From positions 2,341,665 through 2,405,664 of the forward strand of contig NZ_MQWD01000001.1 of NCBI RefSeq assembly GCF_002283365.1: a stretch of 64,000 bases of DNA, in the 5' to 3' direction. The notes under the pieces are model-generated. The model saw only the letters and a program-made list of their open reading frames with translations. It was not told the origin of the DNA and did not search any database. The position numbers and the translations under genes were made by a program. This stretch comes from Rubrivirga marina. GTDB lineage: Bacteria > Bacteroidota > Rhodothermia > Rhodothermales > Rubricoccaceae. Below, piece after piece: positions 38,761 through 47,783 of this stretch (position 1 is the stretch's first letter; every line of letters begins with the position of its first letter).

Positions 38761-38836
38761 AATCGCGCAGGACGTGGCGCGTGAGCATCCGCCCGGTCCG
38801 CCTTCCCCTGCGCCCCACGACCCCCGACCCACGCTC

Positions 38837-40183
38837 ATGCAGATCACCGCCCCCGACGCTCGGAAAGCGCTTCCGGACACGCTCGCCGTCCGCGACATCC
38901 TCGGCCGCCACATCCTGACCGACGGGTTCCCCATCGTCCTCGACATGGAGGGGAGCCGCGGCGCACGCCTCCGCGACCAGGTCACGGGCCGCGACTACAT
39001 CGACTTCTTCACGTTCTACGCCTCGAACCCGCTCGGGATGAACCACCCCGGGCTGGCGGGCGACTCCGACGCGGCGGTCGGCTTCCGCGAGCGGCTCATG
39101 GACGCGGCGCTCAACAAGGTGGCCAACTCGGACGTCTACACGCCGCACTTCGCGCGCTTCGTCGAGACGTTCGGCCGCGTCGGGATCCCGGAGGAGCTGC
39201 CCCACGCCTTCTTCGTGTCGGGCGGCGCGCTCGCGGTCGAGAACGCCCTCAAGGTGGCGTTCGACTGGAAGGTGCGGAAGAACAAGCTGAAGGGCTACTC
39301 CGGCGACCGCGGCCAGATTGTTCTCCACTTCAAAGAGGCGTTCCACGGGCGGAGCGGCTACACGATGTCGCTCACGAACACCGACCCGAACAAGGTCGCC
39401 CACTACCCGAAGTTCGACTGGCCCCGGATCTCGAACCCCAAGATCCGCGGCGGTGACGTCGAGGAGCGCGAGGCCGCGGCGCTGGCCGAGGCCAAGCAGG
39501 CCTTTATCGACCACCCCGACGAGATCGCCGCCATCCTCATCGAGCCGATCCAGGGGGAGGGCGGCGACAACCACTTCCGCCCGGCGTTCCTCCAGGCCCT
39601 CCGCCACCTCGCCGACGAGGAGGAGGCGCTGCTCGTGTTCGACGAGGTCCAGACGGGCGTCGGCCTCACGGGTGCGTTCTGGGCGTGGCAGAGCCTCGGC
39701 GTGACGCCCGACGTGATCGCCTTCGGCAAGAAGACCCAGGTCTGCGGCATCCTCGCCGGCCCGCGCGTCGACGAGGTCGACGACAACGTCTTCCAGAAGT
39801 CGAGCCGGATCAACTCGACGTGGGGCGGCAACCTCGTCGACATGGTCCGCTTCGACCGGATCCTCGAGGTCATCGAGGCGGAGGACCTCATTGGCAACGT
39901 CAACCGGCAGGGCGCGCACCTCATGGCCAAGCTCCGCGAGATGGAGAGCCGCTTCGACGGCGTCACCGACGCCCGCGGCCGGGGTCTCTTCTGCGCGTTC
40001 GACCTGCCCGACACCGAGACGCGCAACGCCGTCCGCCAGGCCGCCTACGACGACGGGCTGATGGCGCTCGGCTGCGGCCCGCGCTCGATCCGCTTCCGCC
40101 CGGCCCTCACGATCACCGAGGCCGACCTCGACGAGGGGCTGGCGATCCTGGAGGGCGCGCTCGAGAAGACGCTCGGCGCCTAG
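38837..40183 (+). CDS. lat: L-lysine 6-aminotransferase
   Basis: A 448-residue fold-type I PLP enzyme of class-III aminotransferases. Marks specific to the lysine-epsilon enzymes are F-T-F-Y-A-S-N-P-L-G-M-N-H near residue 60, F-V-S-G-G-A-L-A-V-E-N-A-L-K, F-H-G-R-S-G-Y-T and D-E-V-Q-T-G-V. The A-F-G-K-K-T-Q-V-C-G loop holds the Schiff-base lysine (Lys298 or 299). It transfers the epsilon-amino group of L-lysine to 2-oxoglutarate, giving allysine/piperideine-6-carboxylate, used for aminoadipate catabolism. Its end faces the cyanophycin genes; a link to Lys released from a cyanophycin-like polymer is possible but not shown. Start 38837 is the first ATG before the conserved N-terminal segment. 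Confidence 0.92.
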   Translation: MQITAPDARKALPDTLAVRDILGRHILTDGFPIVLDMEGSRGARLRDQVTGRDYIDFFTFYASNPLGMNHPGLAGDSDAAVGFRERLMDAALNKVANSDVYTPHFARFVETFGRVGIPEELPHAFFVSGGALAVENALKVAFDWKVRKNKLKGYSGDRGQIVLHFKEAFHGRSGYTMSLTNTDPNKVAHYPKFDWPRISNPKIRGGDVEEREAAALAEAKQAFIDHPDEIAAILIEPIQGEGGDNHFRPAFLQALRHLADEEEALLVFDEVQTGVGLTGAFWAWQSLGVTPDVIAFGKKTQVCGILAGPRVDEVDDNVFQKSSRINSTWGGNLVDMVRFDRILEVIEAEDLIGNVNRQGAHLMAKLREMESRFDGVTDARGRGLFCAFDLPDTETRNAVRQAAYDDGLMALGCGPRSIRFRPALTITEADLDEGLAILEGALEKTLGA

Positions 40184-40427: not shown

Positions 40428-41294
40428 TCAGCTCTCGTCCGGCACCGGGTCCTCGTCCTCATCCAAGTACGGGACCCGGGCCGGGGCGGCGGCGGTGCGC
40501 GCCTCGGTGTCGTAGGTGCACCCGGCCGCGAGCACATGCACGCGCAGGCCGATGAGCGAGACCGGTTGGTTGCGCCGCGCCGAGTCCATCGACGAGTACG
40601 TCAGCTCCGACGGATCCACGACCGTGACCGTCCCGCTGCCGATGACCTCGAACACGTTGTCGGGCCCGAGCACGAGCGCCGTGTCCTCGTCGATGCCGAC
40701 GCCGGTCGCGAACGGGTTGTAGGAGACGGCCGTGAGGAGCCGGCCCAGCCGGTCGCGCTGGCGGAAGTGCTGGTCGATGACGAGCCGGTTGGTCAGCCCC
40801 ATGCCGGGCGCGAGCGTGACCTTCTCGGTCGTCGGCGTGGGGCCTGTCGCGCCGGCGGCGATCATGTGCTCCGGGATGACGGCGGCGCCGGCTGAGGTCC
40901 CGGCGACCACGGTGCCCGCCGCGTTCTGTCGGCGGATGGCCTGCGCGAGGGGCGTCCCGCCGAGGATCGTCGACAGGCGGAGCTGGTTGCCGCCCGTCAT
41001 GAAGATGCCCGTCGCCCGCTCGACCGTCTCGACGGCGCCGGGGACGTGGGCGTGCTCGCGCTCGGTGATCTCCAGCACGTCGACGTGGGCGGCGCCGAGG
41101 TCGTGGAACAGCTTCGCGTAGCGGTCGCCGGTGTCGGCCAGCTCCGAGGCCGTCGGGATGACCGCGATCCGGGCGTCGGGGCCGCCGGCGAGGGCGAGCA
41201 CGCGGGTGAGGATGTCGCGCGTGCCGGTCTTGGCCTCGGCGCCCCCGATGGGGATGATGGGGCCGCGAGGGGCGTCGGTTTCAGGGGAGGGCAT
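40428..41294 (-). CDS. cphB: Cyanophycinase, peptidase family S51
   Basis: A 288-residue Ser exopeptidase that degrades cyanophycin to beta-Asp-Arg dipeptides. Visible marks are I-P-I-G-G-A-E at the start, I-P-T-A-S, F-M-T-G-G-N-Q-L-R-L and the nucleophile Ser134 in A-G-T-S-A-G-A. Further on come T-N-R-L-V-I-D-Q-H-F-R-Q-R-D-R-L-G-R-L and G-I-D-E-D-T-A. The absence of a signal peptide makes it the intracellular type. It starts 11 bases after the iadA stop, so the two form one unit: depolymerise, then split the dipeptide. Confidence 0.95.
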   Translation of the reverse strand: MPSPETDAPRGPIIPIGGAEAKTGTRDILTRVLALAGGPDARIAVIPTASELADTGDRYAKLFHDLGAAHVDVLEITEREHAHVPGAVETVERATGIFMTGGNQLRLSTILGGTPLAQAIRRQNAAGTVVAGTSAGAAVIPEHMIAAGATGPTPTTEKVTLAPGMGLTNRLVIDQHFRQRDRLGRLLTAVSYNPFATGVGIDEDTALVLGPDNVFEVIGSGTVTVVDPSELTYSSMDSARRNQPVSLIGLRVHVLAAGCTYDTEARTAAAPARVPYLDEDEDPVPDES

Positions 41295-41305: not shown

Positions 41306-42466
41306 TCAGTCGGAAGTCTCGAACGTGCCCCGGACGACGGGCCGGCTGTCGCGGACGTGCCACCGGCCGCGGGCCATCACCTCGGTGGGCCGGTCGTCGC
41401 CGAGGACGACGAGATCGGCGTCGCCGCCCTCCACGATCTCGCCCTTGTTCGGCAAGCGGAGGTAGTGGGCCGGCGTCGCGGTGAACGGCGGGAGCGCGTC
41501 CTCGAGCGGGACGCCCCGGCCGAGGAGGTCCGCCAGCAGGTCGGCGAGGGCCCCCGAGGTGGCGAAGTCCATCCGCACGAGCTCGCCGTCGCGGAAGTGC
41601 GGGAGGCAGCCGCCGCCGTCGGACGACACCGTCAGCCGCGCGAGGTGGCCCGCCTCGATGAACCGCTCGACGGCCTTGGCCGCGAGTACCTCGTCGTCGG
41701 TGGCGAACGCCGGAGGGAAGGCCGTCACGTCGATCGTCACACCGCGGGCGGCGAGGTCGAGCGCCTCGTCGAGCAGGCCCGACCGGCGGTTGACGTGCGT
41801 CGGGTGGAACGTCCGCGCCGGGAGCTCGGTCGTGTCGAGGAGGTCCCGGATCATGCCGAGGCCGCGGGCGCCGTCGCCGAGGTGGAGGTGGAGCACGCCG
41901 GCCTTGCCGGTCATCAGACCGGCCACGTGGCAGTCGGCGGCCACCCGGGCGACTTCGTGCATCGTCGGCTGCGACGAGCGGTGGTCGGAGATCGCCAGCT
42001 CGCCAAAGCCGAGGATCGGCTCGACGGTCGCGATGTCGGTGCGGACCGCGCCCGTCAGCGTGGTGGGGGGGAGGTGGTAGCCGCCGGTCCAGGCCCACGC
42101 GCTGAGGCCCTGGCGGCGGAGGGCGTAGACTTGGCGGAGCAGGCCGGCCGTCGTCCGCGTCGTGTCGTCGGTGCCGAGGAGCCCGACGACGCTCGTCACG
42201 CCGGCCGTCGTGTAGCGCGAGAGCGCGGGCGCGGGCGCGGCCGTCTCCGGCCCCGCCTCGCCGCCTCCCCCCGTCACGTGGACGTGCGCGTCGATGAAGC
42301 CGGGCACCAGCCGCCGCCCGCCGAGGTCGACCACGTCGATGGGGACGCCCGTGATCTCGGGAACGCGTTTCGTTATTGAAACGATCGATCCACCGGCCAC
42401 GAGCACGTGGCGCCGCCCGAGCGGGGCGGGCGCGTACACGTCGGCGTTGGTGAGGAGGGTGAGCAC
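41306..42466 (-). CDS. iadA: Isoaspartyl dipeptidase (beta-aspartyl peptidase)
   Basis: A 386-residue amidohydrolase-superfamily enzyme. It has the first metal motif in F-I-D-A-H-V-H-V, the T-T-A-G-V-T-S-V-V-G segment, L-H-L-H-L-G-D-G, H-P-T-H-V-N-R and the late S-S-D-G-G-G metal/base Asp. The pattern matches the isoaspartyl dipeptidases that hydrolyse beta-Asp-X. Next to cphB its natural substrate is presumably beta-Asp-Arg from cyanophycin, releasing free Asp and Arg. It lies upstream of cphB on the same strand with an 11-base gap. A convergent or separate promoter between it and the 42633 gene is likely. Confidence 0.92.
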   Translation of the reverse strand: MLTLLTNADVYAPAPLGRRHVLVAGGSIVSITKRVPEITGVPIDVVDLGGRRLVPGFIDAHVHVTGGGGEAGPETAAPAPALSRYTTAGVTSVVGLLGTDDTTRTTAGLLRQVYALRRQGLSAWAWTGGYHLPPTTLTGAVRTDIATVEPILGFGELAISDHRSSQPTMHEVARVAADCHVAGLMTGKAGVLHLHLGDGARGLGMIRDLLDTTELPARTFHPTHVNRRSGLLDEALDLAARGVTIDVTAFPPAFATDDEVLAAKAVERFIEAGHLARLTVSSDGGGCLPHFRDGELVRMDFATSGALADLLADLLGRGVPLEDALPPFTATPAHYLRLPNKGEIVEGGDADLVVLGDDRPTEVMARGRWHVRDSRPVVRGTFETSD

Positions 42467-42632
42467 GGGCGTCCGGGGGGAGCTTGGAAGCTACCCGGGT
42501 TCCGGTGAAGCGACCGCGACGGGACGACGGAGAGAGCACGCGGGCGGTCCGAACGGATCGCGTCGGGTGGTCCGAACGGATCATCCGGGAGCGACCCAGT
42601 CGGAGGACGTTGTCGACCCCCCCGACCCACCG

Positions 42633-43157
42633 ATGCGCGCCCTCCTCCTCGCCCTGCTGGCCATCTCCGCCACCGCCCAGCCCGTCGCCTCCCTCCGCCT
42701 CGGCGCGCCGCTCCCCGAGGCGGACGTTTCTCCCGGTCTGAGGGCCACGGCCGGCACGCTCTTCGGCACGACCGGCGCGTTCGTCGGCGGCGGGTCGGCC
42801 GCGCTCGGCGTGGTGATGGTCGGGTTCGTCGCCGGCGACTGCAGCCCGTTCGGCTGTGCCGGCACCGTCCCGGATCTGACCGTCCCCCTCGTCGTCGCGT
42901 TCGCCTCGGGGGGCGCCCTCGGGAGCGCCGTCGCCGTCCACCTCATCGCGACCGACGCCGGGCGGCGGTACGGCACCCGGGCCGCCGACGTCGGATTCCG
43001 ACGCGACGACTGGGCGCGCGCGCTGGCCGGCGCCCTCGTCGGGACCGTCCCGGAGCTGCTGGCCGTGGCGCTGATCGGCCCGAGCGAGGGCGGTGGCGAG
43101 TGGATCGCCGTCCCCATCGCGCAGGGGCTCGGTACGGGGCTCGCCCTGGCCCTCTAG
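42633..43157 (+). CDS. Predicted membrane protein of unknown function
   Basis: The 174-residue product has a signal peptide (M-R-A-L-L-L-A-L-L-A, cleavage after A-T-A-Q) and three hydrophobic segments rich in Gly and Ala, at about residues 40-65, 80-105 and 130-150, ending in A-L-A-L. I recognise no family. It stands on the plus strand in the middle of the minus-strand cyanophycin genes and overlaps the Mur ligase 3' end by four bases. Its signal and membrane segments are consistent in one frame, so a real envelope protein is likely. A palindrome-like CCGCCTCGG...CCGAGGCGG pair at about 42695-42723 lies in its coding region. Confidence 0.6.
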   Translation: MRALLLALLAISATAQPVASLRLGAPLPEADVSPGLRATAGTLFGTTGAFVGGGSAALGVVMVGFVAGDCSPFGCAGTVPDLTVPLVVAFASGGALGSAVAVHLIATDAGRRYGTRAADVGFRRDDWARALAGALVGTVPELLAVALIGPSEGGGEWIAVPIAQGLGTGLALAL

Positions 43158-44848
43158 CCCGCGGCCTCTCGGAGCAGGCCGAGTACGGCGTCGCGCTGCG
43201 CGAGGGTGAGGAGGAGCGCGAGGTCGTCGGGCCCGGCCCAGTCGAGGGCATGGCGTGTGCCGGCCGTCGGGTCGGCCTCGAAGGCGAGGGCCTCCTCGGG
43301 CACGCCGCGCTCGCGCAGGAGGTCGGCGAGGCGGGCCGGCGTCTCGCCCTCGGCGCGTCCGCGGAGGTAGCCGGGGATCTCCACGAGGACGTAGCGGTCG
43401 GCCCCGAGGCCGGCGAGGACGTCGCACATGGCCGCGAGGTCGGCGTCGGACCGGTCGCCGGCACTGCCGGTCATGACGAGGCGACGGCGGGCGGGGACGT
43501 GTTCCGCGAGGGACGCCAGCGCCTGGAGGCCGTGCGCGTTGTGGGCGTAGTCGACGAGGACCGTGGCGCCGCCGACGTCGAAGCGGTTGGCCCGGCCCGG
43601 GTTGTCGATGTCGTCGCTCCTGAACGACCGGAGGCCGGCCGCGATCGCGGCGTCGTCGAGGCCGAGCGCCTCGGCCAGCGCGGCGGCCGTGAGCGCGTTG
43701 CGGACGACGTGCCGGGCGGCCCCGCCGAGCGCGGCCGGGATGTCCGCGACGTCGCAGATGGGACGCCAGTCCACGTTGCCACGCAACGAGATCGCTCCGT
43801 CGACCACGGACGCTTGAAGCCGGCCCGGCGCCCCGGGATCGGGGGCGACCGCCGTCCACGCGATGCGCACGCCGCGTGCCTCGAGCGCCTCCCGGTGGCG
43901 GACGACGGCGGCCGTCGCCTCGGGCTCGTCGGCGGGCGCCACGAGCGTGCCCCTGGCCCCGAGGGCCTTCGCCACGACCAGCTTCGCCTCGGCGAGGGCG
44001 GGGACCGTCTCGACGCCGTAGTCGCCGAGGTGGTCGGCCGCGACGTTCGTGAGCGCCGCCGCCGTCACGAGCGGGACGGGCACCCCCCGCCGCAGCAGCC
44101 CCCCTCGCGCGGACTCGCAGACGGCCATGCTCACCCGCCCGTCTCGCATGACGGCGCGCGCGCCGAGCGGGCCCGAGAAGTCGCCGCGCTCGACGACCTC
44201 GTCGCCCACCGTCACGGCGTCCGTCGTCGAGAAGCCGACGGTGTGGCCGGCCGCGTGGCCCATCGCCGCCAAGAGCCGCACCGTCGTCGATTTGCCGTTG
44301 GTGCCCGTCACGAGCGCCGTCGGAATCGGGCCGACGGCGTCCCAGTCGACGGCGTCCGGGTCGGGGAGGGCGTCCGGGGCGAAGGTCTGCCCCCGCGCCC
44401 CGAGGCCGACGGTGAGGGCGTCGTCGTCCCAGACGAGCGGGACGCCGCGGCGCTCGGCGGCGGCGACGAGCGCCGCCAGCGGCGGGTCCGATTCCCTCCG
44501 GGCCTCCGCCTGAAGTCGGCCGACGGTCTCCCCGAGGTCGGGGGGCTCGCGGCCTTCGATCTCGGCGCGCGCGCGGGCCCACGCCGCCTCGTTCACCTCG
44601 GTCGCCGTGTAGAGGAGGTCGACGGGGGAGCCGAGGGCGAGCGAGAGTCCGCGGGGGAACGGGCGGACGACGAGCGGGGCGTCGGTCCAGCCCACGCCGT
44701 CGCAGAGGGCGCGGGCGTGCGTTCGCCAGCGTCGTTCGGCGTCGGGCCGAAGCGGCTCGGGCACGAGCACTTCGAGCGCGGCGCCGGGGCCGTCGAGGAG
44801 GAAGCCCGCGCCGGTCTGGCGTCGGCTGTCGATCGGGTCAGAAAGCAC
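43154..44848 (-). CDS. Orphan Mur-ligase-family protein, CphA-M-domain-like, no ATP-grasp domain
   Basis: The 564-residue protein has an N-terminal 170 residues of no recognised family, then a complete Mur-ligase core: P-loop G-T-N-G-K-S-T-T at residues 182-189, G-P-L-G-A-R-A-V-M-R-D, the A-R-G-G-L-L-R-R-G segment, T-N-V-A-A-D-H-L-G-D, R-N-A-L-T-A, N-P-G-R-A-N-R-F and D-Y-A-H-N-A-H-G. The A-R-G-G-L and A-D-H-L-G parts are closer to the Mur-like M domain of cyanophycin synthetase than to MurE or MurC. It lacks the ATP-grasp domain that adds Asp in CphA. It starts at a GTG 76 bases after cphA, so it is likely co-expressed. It probably ligates an amino acid to an Asp- or peptide-containing acceptor (inference). 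Confidence 0.85.
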   Translation of the reverse strand: MLSDPIDSRRQTGAGFLLDGPGAALEVLVPEPLRPDAERRWRTHARALCDGVGWTDAPLVVRPFPRGLSLALGSPVDLLYTATEVNEAAWARARAEIEGREPPDLGETVGRLQAEARRESDPPLAALVAAAERRGVPLVWDDDALTVGLGARGQTFAPDALPDPDAVDWDAVGPIPTALVTGTNGKSTTVRLLAAMGHAAGHTVGFSTTDAVTVGDEVVERGDFSGPLGARAVMRDGRVSMAVCESARGGLLRRGVPVPLVTAAALTNVAADHLGDYGVETVPALAEAKLVVAKALGARGTLVAPADEPEATAAVVRHREALEARGVRIAWTAVAPDPGAPGRLQASVVDGAISLRGNVDWRPICDVADIPAALGGAARHVVRNALTAAALAEALGLDDAAIAAGLRSFRSDDIDNPGRANRFDVGGATVLVDYAHNAHGLQALASLAEHVPARRRLVMTGSAGDRSDADLAAMCDVLAGLGADRYVLVEIPGYLRGRAEGETPARLADLLRERGVPEEALAFEADPTAGTRHALDWAGPDDLALLLTLAQRDAVLGLLREAAG

Positions 44849-44924: not shown

Positions 44925-47783
44925 TCAGTCCGCCTCCTCGTCCGTCACGAGGTGGACGCCGCGGCGGTCGCGGACGAGGCGCTGGCCGCGGCTCACCTCG
45001 AACGCGGTGGGCTCGTCGCTGTCGTCCTCGTCGATCGGGCTCGTCACGCGGGGCGCGGGTGGGGCCGCCTCGGTGGGGCGGGGCGCAGGGGTCGCTTGCC
45101 CGTCGCCGGAGGCCGCGCCGAAGTGGATGATCTGGTCCCAGCACCGCTCTATGTGGTCTCCGAACACGACGACGAGGTCGCCCGGACCCGCTTGCCTGAG
45201 GGCGTGGAGGACGGCCGCCTCTTCCTCGGGGACCACGTCGATGGCGCCTTCGGCCACGCCCGCGTCGAGGAGGCAGCGGCGGAGCATCTCGGGGATCTCG
45301 GTCTCGCCGCGCCCCCGCAGCCGGTCGTCGCGCTTGCAGACGTAGTGGTCGAAGTGGCCGGCCGCCGCGCGCGCCATCGCGTCGACGTCCTCGTCGCGCC
45401 GGTCGCCGGGCGCCGCGAGGGCGAGGATCCGCCGGCCCTGCACGTCGAGCCGGTCCACCAGCGACGCCATCGCCTCGACGGCCGCCGGGTTGTGGGCGTA
45501 GTCGAGGATGACGCGGAAGGGGTGCCCGTCGAACACGTTGAGCCGGCCGGGCGCCTCGTAGAAGCTGGTCGAGAACGTCTGGAGGCCGTGGCGGATCTGG
45601 TCGAGCGTGAGCTCGACGGGCCCGTTGCCGAGCGCGTAGGCGATCCCCGCCGCGAACATCGCGTTCTGGACGTTGTGCGACGCTTTCCCGTCGATCGTCG
45701 CGGGGATGAGGTGGGTCCAGACGAGCGGGAGGTGCCGGCCGCCGTCGTGGATCGTGATCATCTCGCCCGCGATGCCGCGCTCCAGCACCACGGCCCGCCC
45801 GCCCTCGCGGACGTGCTCGCGGACGAGCGCGTGCTCGGCATTCATCGTCACGTAGCAGAGGTGCTCGGCGTCGGCGTGCTCGGCCATCGCCAGCACCCGC
45901 GGGTCGTCGGCGTTGAGGACGACGGTGTCGGTCGCGACCTCGATCGGGATCCGCTTGATCTCGGCGAGCTCGTCGAGCGTGTTGATCCGGCCCAGCCCGA
46001 GGTGGTCGGCCGAGACGTTGAGGCACGCGGCGACGTCGCAGCGGCGGACGCCGAGGCCGGCGCGGACGAGCCCGCCCCGGGCCACCTCCAGCACGGCCGC
46101 GTCGACCGACGGGTCGCGCAGGACGGTCCGCGCGCCGACGGGCCCTGTCATGTCGCCCTTCACCGAGAGCCGCCCGTCGACGAACACGCCGTCGGTGCTC
46201 GTCATGCCGGGCATGAACCCGGCCATCTGGAGGATGTGGGAGACCATCCGCGTCGTCGTCGTCTTCCCGTTCGTCCCGGTGACGATGGCGACGGGGATCC
46301 GCGACGGCGTGTTGGGCGGGAACAGCATGTCCATGACCGGCCCGGCCACGTCGCGCGGCGTCCCCTCGCTGGGCGCGACGTGCATCCGGAAGCCCGGCGC
46401 CGCGTTGACTTCGACGATGGCCCCGCCCACCTCGCGCCAGCTCTGGGTGATGTCGTCGGTCAAGAAGTCGACGCCGCCCACGTCGAGTCCGACGGCGCGG
46501 ACGGCGCGCTCGGCCATGTCGCGGTTGTCGGGGTGGACCACGTCGGTCAGGTCGATGGCCGTGCCGCCCGTCGAGAGGTTGGCCGTCGAGCGGAGGTAGA
46601 ACGTCTCGCCCTCCGGCAAGACCGTCTCGGCCGTGTAGCCGGCGCGCGCCAGGAGCCGCTCGGCCTGCGCGTCGAACTCCAGCCGGGTGAGCACCTTCTC
46701 GTGCCCCACGCCGCGCCGCGGGTCTTGGTTGACGATCTCGACCAGCTCCTCGATCGTGTGCTCGCCGTCGCCGACGACGTGCCCCGGCACGCGCTTGGCG
46801 ACCGCCACGAGGTGCCCGTTCACGACGAGCATCCGGTGGTCGAAGCCCGAGACGAAGCTCTCGACGAGCACGGCCCGGCTCGTCCCGTGCTTCTGGGCGT
46901 GCTCGAAGCCGGTCTCGACCTGGTCGGGCTCCGTCAGCCGGATCGAGACGCCGCGCCCGTGGTTCGCGTTGAGCGGCTTCGTCACGACGGGATACCCGAT
47001 CCGCCGCGCCGCGCGGACGGCGTCGGACGGCCCGTAGACGAGCTCCTGCTTGGGGACCGGCAGACCGAGCGACTCGAGGAGCGCCCGCGTGTCCTCCTTG
47101 TCGCTCGCGATCTCGACGGCGATGTGCTTCGTCTGGCCCGTGACCGTCGCCTGGATCCGCTGCTGGTAGGTCCCGTGGCCGAGCTGGACGAGCGAGTACT
47201 TGTTGAGCCGGATCCACGGGACGTCGCGCGCCTCGGCGGCGTCGATGATCGACTGGGTGCTCGGGCCGAACGCGAGCCGCTGGGCCCGCTTGATGAACGC
47301 GTCGCGCTCCTCCTCCCAGTCGTAGTCGGCCTCCTTCTCCTCGTCGATGAGGGCCTGGACGTCGTCCGGCAGGAGCCGGAGGATGATCCGCCGCGCGAGC
47401 TCCGAGGCCTCCAGGCCGACGTCCTTCTGCTGGTACTGGAAGACCATGTCGTACTCGCCCACGGCTCGGCCCGTCGAGCGCGTCTTGCCGAACGTCACGT
47501 CGTGGCCGGCGATGCCCTGGAGCTCGAGGGCGACGTGCTCCCAGACGTGGCCGAGCCAGGTCCCCTCGTCCTCGGTCATCCGCCGGATGAACCCACCGGG
47601 CTCGCGGTACGAGCACCCGTGCTCGTGGAGCCCGGGGAGCACCTCGCAGAGCCGGTCGACGAACCCGTCCAGCTTCTGCGTCGGGTAGTCCTCCAGCGGC
47701 CCGAGGTCGATGGTGTGGCGGATGACCGGGAAGTGGGCGTACTGGTTGGGACCGACGTAGACGTTGGTCGAGACGACGCGCAT
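44925..47783 (-). CDS. cphA: Cyanophycin synthetase
   Basis: A 952-residue enzyme with the three CphA domains: an N domain (residues 1-200, with W-E-H-V-A-L-E-L-Q), an ATP-grasp domain (about 210-490, with K-P-L-N-A-N-H-G-R-G-V-S) that adds Asp to the backbone, and a Mur-ligase-like domain. The last has P-loop G-T-N-G-K-T-T-T-T at 503-511, L-E-V-A-R-G-G-L, N-V-S-A-D-H-L-G and D-Y-A-H-N-P-A-A, and adds Arg to the Asp side chain. The product is the nitrogen-storage polymer multi-L-arginyl-poly-L-aspartate. It is longer than the usual 870-900 residues owing to a Pro/Ala/Asp-rich C-terminal tail of about 60 residues. It is the first gene of the minus-strand group. Confidence 0.96.
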   Translation of the reverse strand: MRVVSTNVYVGPNQYAHFPVIRHTIDLGPLEDYPTQKLDGFVDRLCEVLPGLHEHGCSYREPGGFIRRMTEDEGTWLGHVWEHVALELQGIAGHDVTFGKTRSTGRAVGEYDMVFQYQQKDVGLEASELARRIILRLLPDDVQALIDEEKEADYDWEEERDAFIKRAQRLAFGPSTQSIIDAAEARDVPWIRLNKYSLVQLGHGTYQQRIQATVTGQTKHIAVEIASDKEDTRALLESLGLPVPKQELVYGPSDAVRAARRIGYPVVTKPLNANHGRGVSIRLTEPDQVETGFEHAQKHGTSRAVLVESFVSGFDHRMLVVNGHLVAVAKRVPGHVVGDGEHTIEELVEIVNQDPRRGVGHEKVLTRLEFDAQAERLLARAGYTAETVLPEGETFYLRSTANLSTGGTAIDLTDVVHPDNRDMAERAVRAVGLDVGGVDFLTDDITQSWREVGGAIVEVNAAPGFRMHVAPSEGTPRDVAGPVMDMLFPPNTPSRIPVAIVTGTNGKTTTTRMVSHILQMAGFMPGMTSTDGVFVDGRLSVKGDMTGPVGARTVLRDPSVDAAVLEVARGGLVRAGLGVRRCDVAACLNVSADHLGLGRINTLDELAEIKRIPIEVATDTVVLNADDPRVLAMAEHADAEHLCYVTMNAEHALVREHVREGGRAVVLERGIAGEMITIHDGGRHLPLVWTHLIPATIDGKASHNVQNAMFAAGIAYALGNGPVELTLDQIRHGLQTFSTSFYEAPGRLNVFDGHPFRVILDYAHNPAAVEAMASLVDRLDVQGRRILALAAPGDRRDEDVDAMARAAAGHFDHYVCKRDDRLRGRGETEIPEMLRRCLLDAGVAEGAIDVVPEEEAAVLHALRQAGPGDLVVVFGDHIERCWDQIIHFGAASGDGQATPAPRPTEAAPPAPRVTSPIDEDDSDEPTAFEVSRGQRLVRDRRGVHLVTDEEAD

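Follow-up and report, generated by a model that had tools for sequence, protein, structure and literature searches.

A CphA-like Mur ligase without an ATP-grasp domain, encoded beside a tailed cyanophycin synthetase in Rubrivirga marina

By existing descriptions, CphA1 makes cyanophycin, a bacterial nitrogen-storage polymer, without the help of a second enzyme. Why, then, does a locus with a complete cphA also encode a second, smaller protein of the same general type? The window analysed here, 64,000 nucleotides of Rubrivirga marina (assembly GCF_002283365.1, contig NZ_MQWD01000001.1, positions 2,341,665 to 2,405,664), raises this question on its minus strand, where the stop of cphA is followed after 76 bp by an open reading frame (ORF) with a GTG start whose translation gives 564 amino acids. 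We call this gene and its product the companion, and the neighbouring synthetase its partner; coordinates are those of the window.

43154..44848, minus strand: companion gene, for a CphA-like N-M ligase without the ATP-grasp (G) domain (ORF, family profiles, AF2 model with Foldseek, phylogeny)
44925..47783, minus strand: partner cphA, for a CphA1 of 952 amino acids with an N domain carrying C57...H79xxE82H83, a G domain and a Mur (M) domain (TIGR02068 and PF18921 above cut-off)

An earlier note, made from the sequence alone, had read the companion as an extra Mur ligase with a link to cyanophycin. Its description of the 564-residue frame, of the 76-base gap after cphA, and of iadA and cphB on the same strand agrees with the ORFs and profiles, and the link itself is borne out by the trees, by a CphA-type N domain and by co-occurrence with CphA. 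We conclude that the companion almost certainly belongs to cyanophycin metabolism.

The companion matches two Pfam families only, Mur_ligase_M (residues 180-314) and Mur_ligase_C (418-546); Pfam sequence profiles detected neither ATP-grasp nor PF18921 in it. The Mur signatures named in the earlier note were located as TGTNGKSTT (181-189), ARGGL (247-251) and ADHLG (271-275), and the missing ATP-grasp domain was confirmed, with none given by the Pfam or NCBIfam profiles. Its top NCBIfam family is TIGR02068, cyanophycin synthetase, matched over model positions 478-848 of 862, the M part, with an E-value of 4e-83 and 279.9 bits, below the 850-bit cut-off; the partner, a complete CphA1, scores 1104 bits in the same kind of search. 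The N-terminal 170 residues had been called unrecognised, and sequence searches with the N-terminus found no Pfam family above chance and no PDB match, with hhalign negative over most of its length. Residues 120-160 do match the CphA N/G junction (P 0.002), and the hairpin matches that of a G-less CphA from Deinococcus deserti (P 1e-4). The structure prediction was clearer: when residues 1-175 were modelled separately (predicted local distance difference test score, pLDDT, 89.4), the top 11 PDB matches in Foldseek were all CphA1 or CphA2, with E-values of 2e-5 to 2e-3, and a designed peptide trap ranked 12th (E 5e-3). The full-length AF2 model, built from five sequences (pLDDT 82.9), has CphA1 chains (7wae, 7lg5) as its best PDB matches, with TMq 0.80 and an E-value of 2e-31, and aligns along the entire CphA1 chain with the G domain skipped; matches to MurE reach a TMq of about 0.5. 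The fold search thus rules out a novel N-terminal domain, and the region is instead a diverged CphA N domain with the first G-domain hairpin, about 156 amino acids in all.

44381..44848, minus strand: companion amino acids 1-156, diverged CphA N domain and first G-domain hairpin (model of amino acids 1-175, hhalign)
43205..44323, minus strand: companion amino acids 176-548, Mur (M) domain (conservation in 41 sequences, correspondence with CphA1 residues)

The modelled layout is therefore an N domain, the first G hairpin and then directly the M domain; about 20 amino acids separate hairpin from M domain, which leaves no room for a G domain. Within the N domain W41 is invariant, and the HxxEH zinc motif, primer-making in CphA1, is absent. 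The N domain of CphA2 is likewise without the zinc motif (PMC9262961).

Is the companion a recent product of its neighbour, or a Mur ligase of another pathway? In two trees that included MurE and left out MurC and FolC, it forms one clade with support of 99-100, falls outside the CphA clade (support 91-93), and is separated from MurE by a split with support of 100. Against the NCBIfam models it stays below the cut-offs for murE (74 of 257 bits), murC (42 of 335) and folC (37 of 163). Trees and family scores together rule out membership of these families, MurE by the split and MurC and FolC by the scores, and so remove one way in which the earlier note thought that the cyanophycin link might fail. 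Forcing the companion into a joint clade with the adjacent CphA costs 25.6 log-likelihood units (approximately unbiased test, p 0.03), so that recent duplication is rejected, if moderately, and the companion is probably not a copy of the neighbouring cphA.

The M domain retains what a working ligase needs. The ATP- and Mg-binding residues of TeCphA1 (K499, T500, T522, E558, R731 and H748; PMC9427784) correspond by spacing to K186, S187, T209, E245, R419 and H436 of the companion, and the catalytic pair D585-H586 of SuCphA1 (PMC9262961) corresponds to D272-H273. In 41 distinct companion sequences, aligned end to end and compared with 108 CphA rows, the ATP, Mg and catalytic positions, including K289, show little or no variation (position 187 being S or T), and both the P-loop and the lid residues R419 and H436 are present. 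The ratio of nonsynonymous to synonymous differences (pN/pS) is 0.10-0.42 in six pairs of companion genes. Together with the retained catalytic residues, this points to an enzyme under selection rather than a decaying copy, and the companion is very likely an active ligase.

The surroundings of the active site are altered. R796 of the CphA segment GDRRDED is replaced by S/T467 in 39 of the 41 companions, and E798 is lost; the position of G532 holds Y, F or W in 32 of 41. The acidic pair of the CphA segment RDDxLRGR gives way to [ED]xx..YLRGR, in which a single acidic residue is followed by hydrophobic ones and LRGR is preceded by an insertion of two amino acids. Four companion residues, R254 (invariant, in the segment ARGGLLRRG), Y277, N416 and R552, are new relative to CphA and invariant or nearly so, and the acceptor loop GD-x-SGP is kept. 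By analogy with MurE, the GDRxD and DNPR-like segments are the presumed site of the incoming amino acid. The weakened acidic cluster speaks against a site that merely duplicates the one for Arg addition, and the altered residues as a whole favour a changed substrate.

The partner, too, is distinctive. The CphAs that adjoin a companion form one clade, with support of 83 in the first tree and 100 in the second; they retain the H79xxE82H83 zinc motif, and they end in a short conserved tail.

44928..44987, minus strand: C-terminal tail motif of the partner CphA, GQRLVRDRRGVHLVTDEEAD (amino acids 933-952), after a variable linker; putative docking peptide (30/30 against 0/75)

The tail has the consensus L-[VI]-R-D-x-R-G-V-R-L with an acidic end (LVRDeRGVRL...EEAD). 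All 30 companion-type CphAs carry it, with D and G invariant and with R/K and V/I the sole residues at theirs; the other 75 closed CphAs lack it (Fisher p 6e-27, with no correction for kinship). The CphAs of Shinella and Ruegeria have it as well. Since this short peptide, set off by a variable linker, is kept across phyla only where a companion exists, it is best read as a putative docking peptide for the companion. Pairwise distances of companions and partners are correlated over 23 loci (r 0.88, Mantel p 0.0002), and the slope of the paired distances indicates that the companion evolves about 1.9 times faster than the partner.

How constant is the association? Profile searches of whole genomes, with each species represented once, detected the companion in 43 of them: 17 Rhodothermales, 20 Sphingomonadales, 4 other alphaproteobacterial genomes and 2 further Pseudomonadota. 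All 43 also encode CphA, and about 1,440 genome searches, in which some genomes were counted repeatedly, gave no companion without CphA; the homologues are thus not equally common in genomes without cphA, the other outcome that the earlier note had held to be fatal to the link. Many CphA genomes lack a companion, 12 in other orders of the window's class among them. Plasmids recorded for Shinella, Roseateles and two Ruegeria also carry the companion, where its annotation goes no further than "Mur ligase family protein". Its neighbourhood recurs across two phyla: the prevailing order is cphB-cphA-companion, in which the genes mostly lie 3-100 bp apart and in several loci overlap. Loci of both Rhodothermales and Alphaproteobacteria show it, accompanied by an upstream iadA or by an iaaA that lies downstream in convergent orientation. 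Cyanophycinase, cphA and companion also follow one another in Shinella zoogloeoides and Ruegeria sp. AD91A. An all-against-all comparison of 23 loci revealed cphA, companion, cphB, iadA, iaaA and antisense frames as the only broadly shared families.

What, then, might the companion do? Our leading reading, which we hold tentatively and at a little under an even chance, is an active ATP-dependent Mur-type ligase that works in trans with the adjacent CphA and adds an amino acid to Asp of the polymer or its starter. The G domain of CphA would extend the poly-Asp backbone and its M domain would normally attach Arg; the C-terminal tail would probably hold the companion near CphA; the companion N domain, without the primer-making zinc site, would hold the polymer; and the companion M domain would join an amino acid to the Asp beta-carboxylate of that polymer or of its starter. 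Companion and tailed partner probably share one polymer as their substrate. An amino acid other than Arg is plausible and, on this reading, more probable than Arg itself, because the presumed pocket and the residues near the acceptor differ from those of all CphAs, and its addition would yield a modified cyanophycin. The complete two-enzyme pathway, in which a docking-tailed CphA recruits a G-less ligase that adds a non-Arg amino acid and a natural modified cyanophycin is stored, is a possibility that we hold more loosely still. The earlier note had proposed a different amino acid, capping or dipeptide recycling; the altered pocket favours a changed substrate, and none of the three was confirmed. 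On our leading reading the tailed-CphA branch would, in two distant phyla, have a step beyond single-enzyme cyanophycin synthesis; were the amino acid not Arg, the natural polymer would be chemically different, with consequences for how marine bacteria store nitrogen and for the making of tailored polyamides.

Several points weigh against this reading. The amino-acid pocket of the companion is presumed, having been assigned by analogy with the DNPR region of MurE, and a diverged pocket may bind Arg all the same. One genome (G008, 88% complete) has a tailed CphA, yet no companion was found in it. Tail and companion each form one clade-like group, so their association does not amount to many independent events. 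In favour of the reading is a promiscuous dipeptidase gene in the vicinity of 16 of 22 companion loci, as compared with 5 of 43 other cphA loci; the two locus sets differ in taxonomy. IadA and IaaA accept many beta-Asp-X dipeptides (PMC10206079), and frequent dipeptidase genes would go well with a polymer whose side chains are mixed, without proving one.

Much of the same evidence could be read in other ways. The first steps of CphA1 from free Asp and Arg are slow (PMC9262961), and the companion might be a primer-maker or auxiliary Arg ligase that serves where CphA is slow, supplying beta-Asp-Arg starters or recharging bare Asp, so that the product would be ordinary cyanophycin; the kept acceptor loop fits this, and the extra R254 might accommodate an acceptor of greater acidity, for instance free Asp. 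We think it unlikely, though by no means far-fetched, since the partner CphAs keep the primer-making H79xxE82H83, so that a second source of primer looks unnecessary, and the changes at R796 and the acidic pair are not easily reconciled with a site that continues to bind Arg. The conserved tail and the faster evolution of the companion (slope 1.9) would also fit a regulatory or structural subunit of minimal or absent ligase activity, whose binding to CphA and polymer would govern assembly, chain length or granules. That reading is improbable in view of the ATP, Mg and catalytic residues kept throughout the 41 members, unlike the case of CphA2 after its loss of M activity (PMC9427784).

The location of the companion with cphB and iadA or iaaA brings to mind a ligase for recycling or capping, which would re-ligate degradation products or block chain ends. 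Re-polymerisation of dipeptides by CphA2 uses the G domain, however, which the companion does not have, and in the window the companion directly follows cphA, with iadA and cphB beyond a convergent ORF; we regard this account as quite improbable. A peptidoglycan (MurE/MurC) or folate (FolC) ligase lying beside cphA by chance can draw on the distant Mur-family scores, but it is already contradicted by the phylogeny, by the CphA-type N domain and by the constant presence of CphA, and the source genome has six Mur_ligase_M matches outside the cph locus, of eight in total; it is scarcely credible. The trans-acting ligase remains our preferred reading.

Compared with CphA1 (TIGR02068; PDB 7lg5, 7wae), the companion shares the N-M order and, within M, the residues for ATP and Mg and the D-H catalytic pair; over M it is about 37% identical to its partner. 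It differs in having no G domain, no HxxEH zinc site in N, and altered pocket residues. CphA2 (PDB 8fxh) is likewise a reduced CphA with one synthetic site, and its N domain is among the best matches to that of the companion. CphA2 kept G and lost the P-loop M and the M-lid (PMC9427784), so that the companion, with M kept and G lost, is its mirror image. MurE shares the Mur ligase chemistry and fold, but it lies on a separate branch (support 100), and the N-terminal domain of the companion is of the CphA type instead. The D. deserti protein WP_012695043 (724 amino acids, "Mur ligase family protein") resembles the companion in having N (PF18921, E 6e-35) and Mur domains without ATP-grasp; it differs in grouping among the CphAs, near Deinococcus CphA, for which reason the trees indicate that G was lost from CphA at least twice. 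CphA has thus been split in more than one way, CphA2 having lost M, and the companion family and a Deinococcus protein G. No cph genes lie beside the D. deserti gene (L210, 6023-8197), which is on plasmid 3 (NC_012528.1) in the vicinity of the genes for ddrOP3 and spore photoproduct lyase; a comparable match comes from D. taeanensis (H11). A CphA-like Mur protein in two actinomycetotal metagenome-assembled genomes (L049, 1046-2782; L098) also has no ATP-grasp and a genome with CphA, but has another N-terminal region and a separate branch. We found no earlier description of the companion in the searchable open literature, which is no proof of absence, as subscription papers were mostly outside the search. 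The earlier note's view that no described cyanophycin enzyme known to its author has this layout stands to that extent; the companion is nevertheless a recurrent family, and a separate G-less CphA exists in D. deserti.

The window departs, with a close relative (G001), from the prevailing gene order in that iadA and cphB come after the companion.

41306..42466, minus strand: iadA, isoaspartyl dipeptidase (TIGR01975 above cut-off)
40428..41294, minus strand: cphB, cyanophycinase (TIGR02069 above cut-off)

The convergent ORF between companion and iadA (42573-43157, plus strand) encodes 194 amino acids with hydrophobic stretches and has no Pfam match. Convergent to cphB is an L-lysine 6-transaminase gene (38774-40183, plus strand; TIGR03251 above cut-off), which suggested lysine as a substrate. 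The idea was dropped because the transaminase gene is not beside the cph genes even in a genome of the same genus; none was found near the cph genes in the other companion loci. A saccharopine dehydrogenase-like gene lies near cphB in Ruegeria sp. AD91A. The dipeptidase place is taken by unrelated enzymes, iadA in Rhodothermales and mostly a convergent iaaA in Sphingomonadales (L161, L164, L155, L156-L158, L166-L168). In genome G008, contig C121 (L021, 2760-3110) carries a displaced second copy of the tail-coding sequence downstream of the tailed cphA, at the place expected for the companion. A Pseudomonadota genome (G1028; L207, 6114-11403) has a tandem pair of full-length cphA genes with no loss of G. 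On the Shinella zoogloeoides plasmid (L208, 1-1685), a Tn3-family transposase and a recombinase adjoin the cphB-cphA-companion set, a possible route of spread between lineages.
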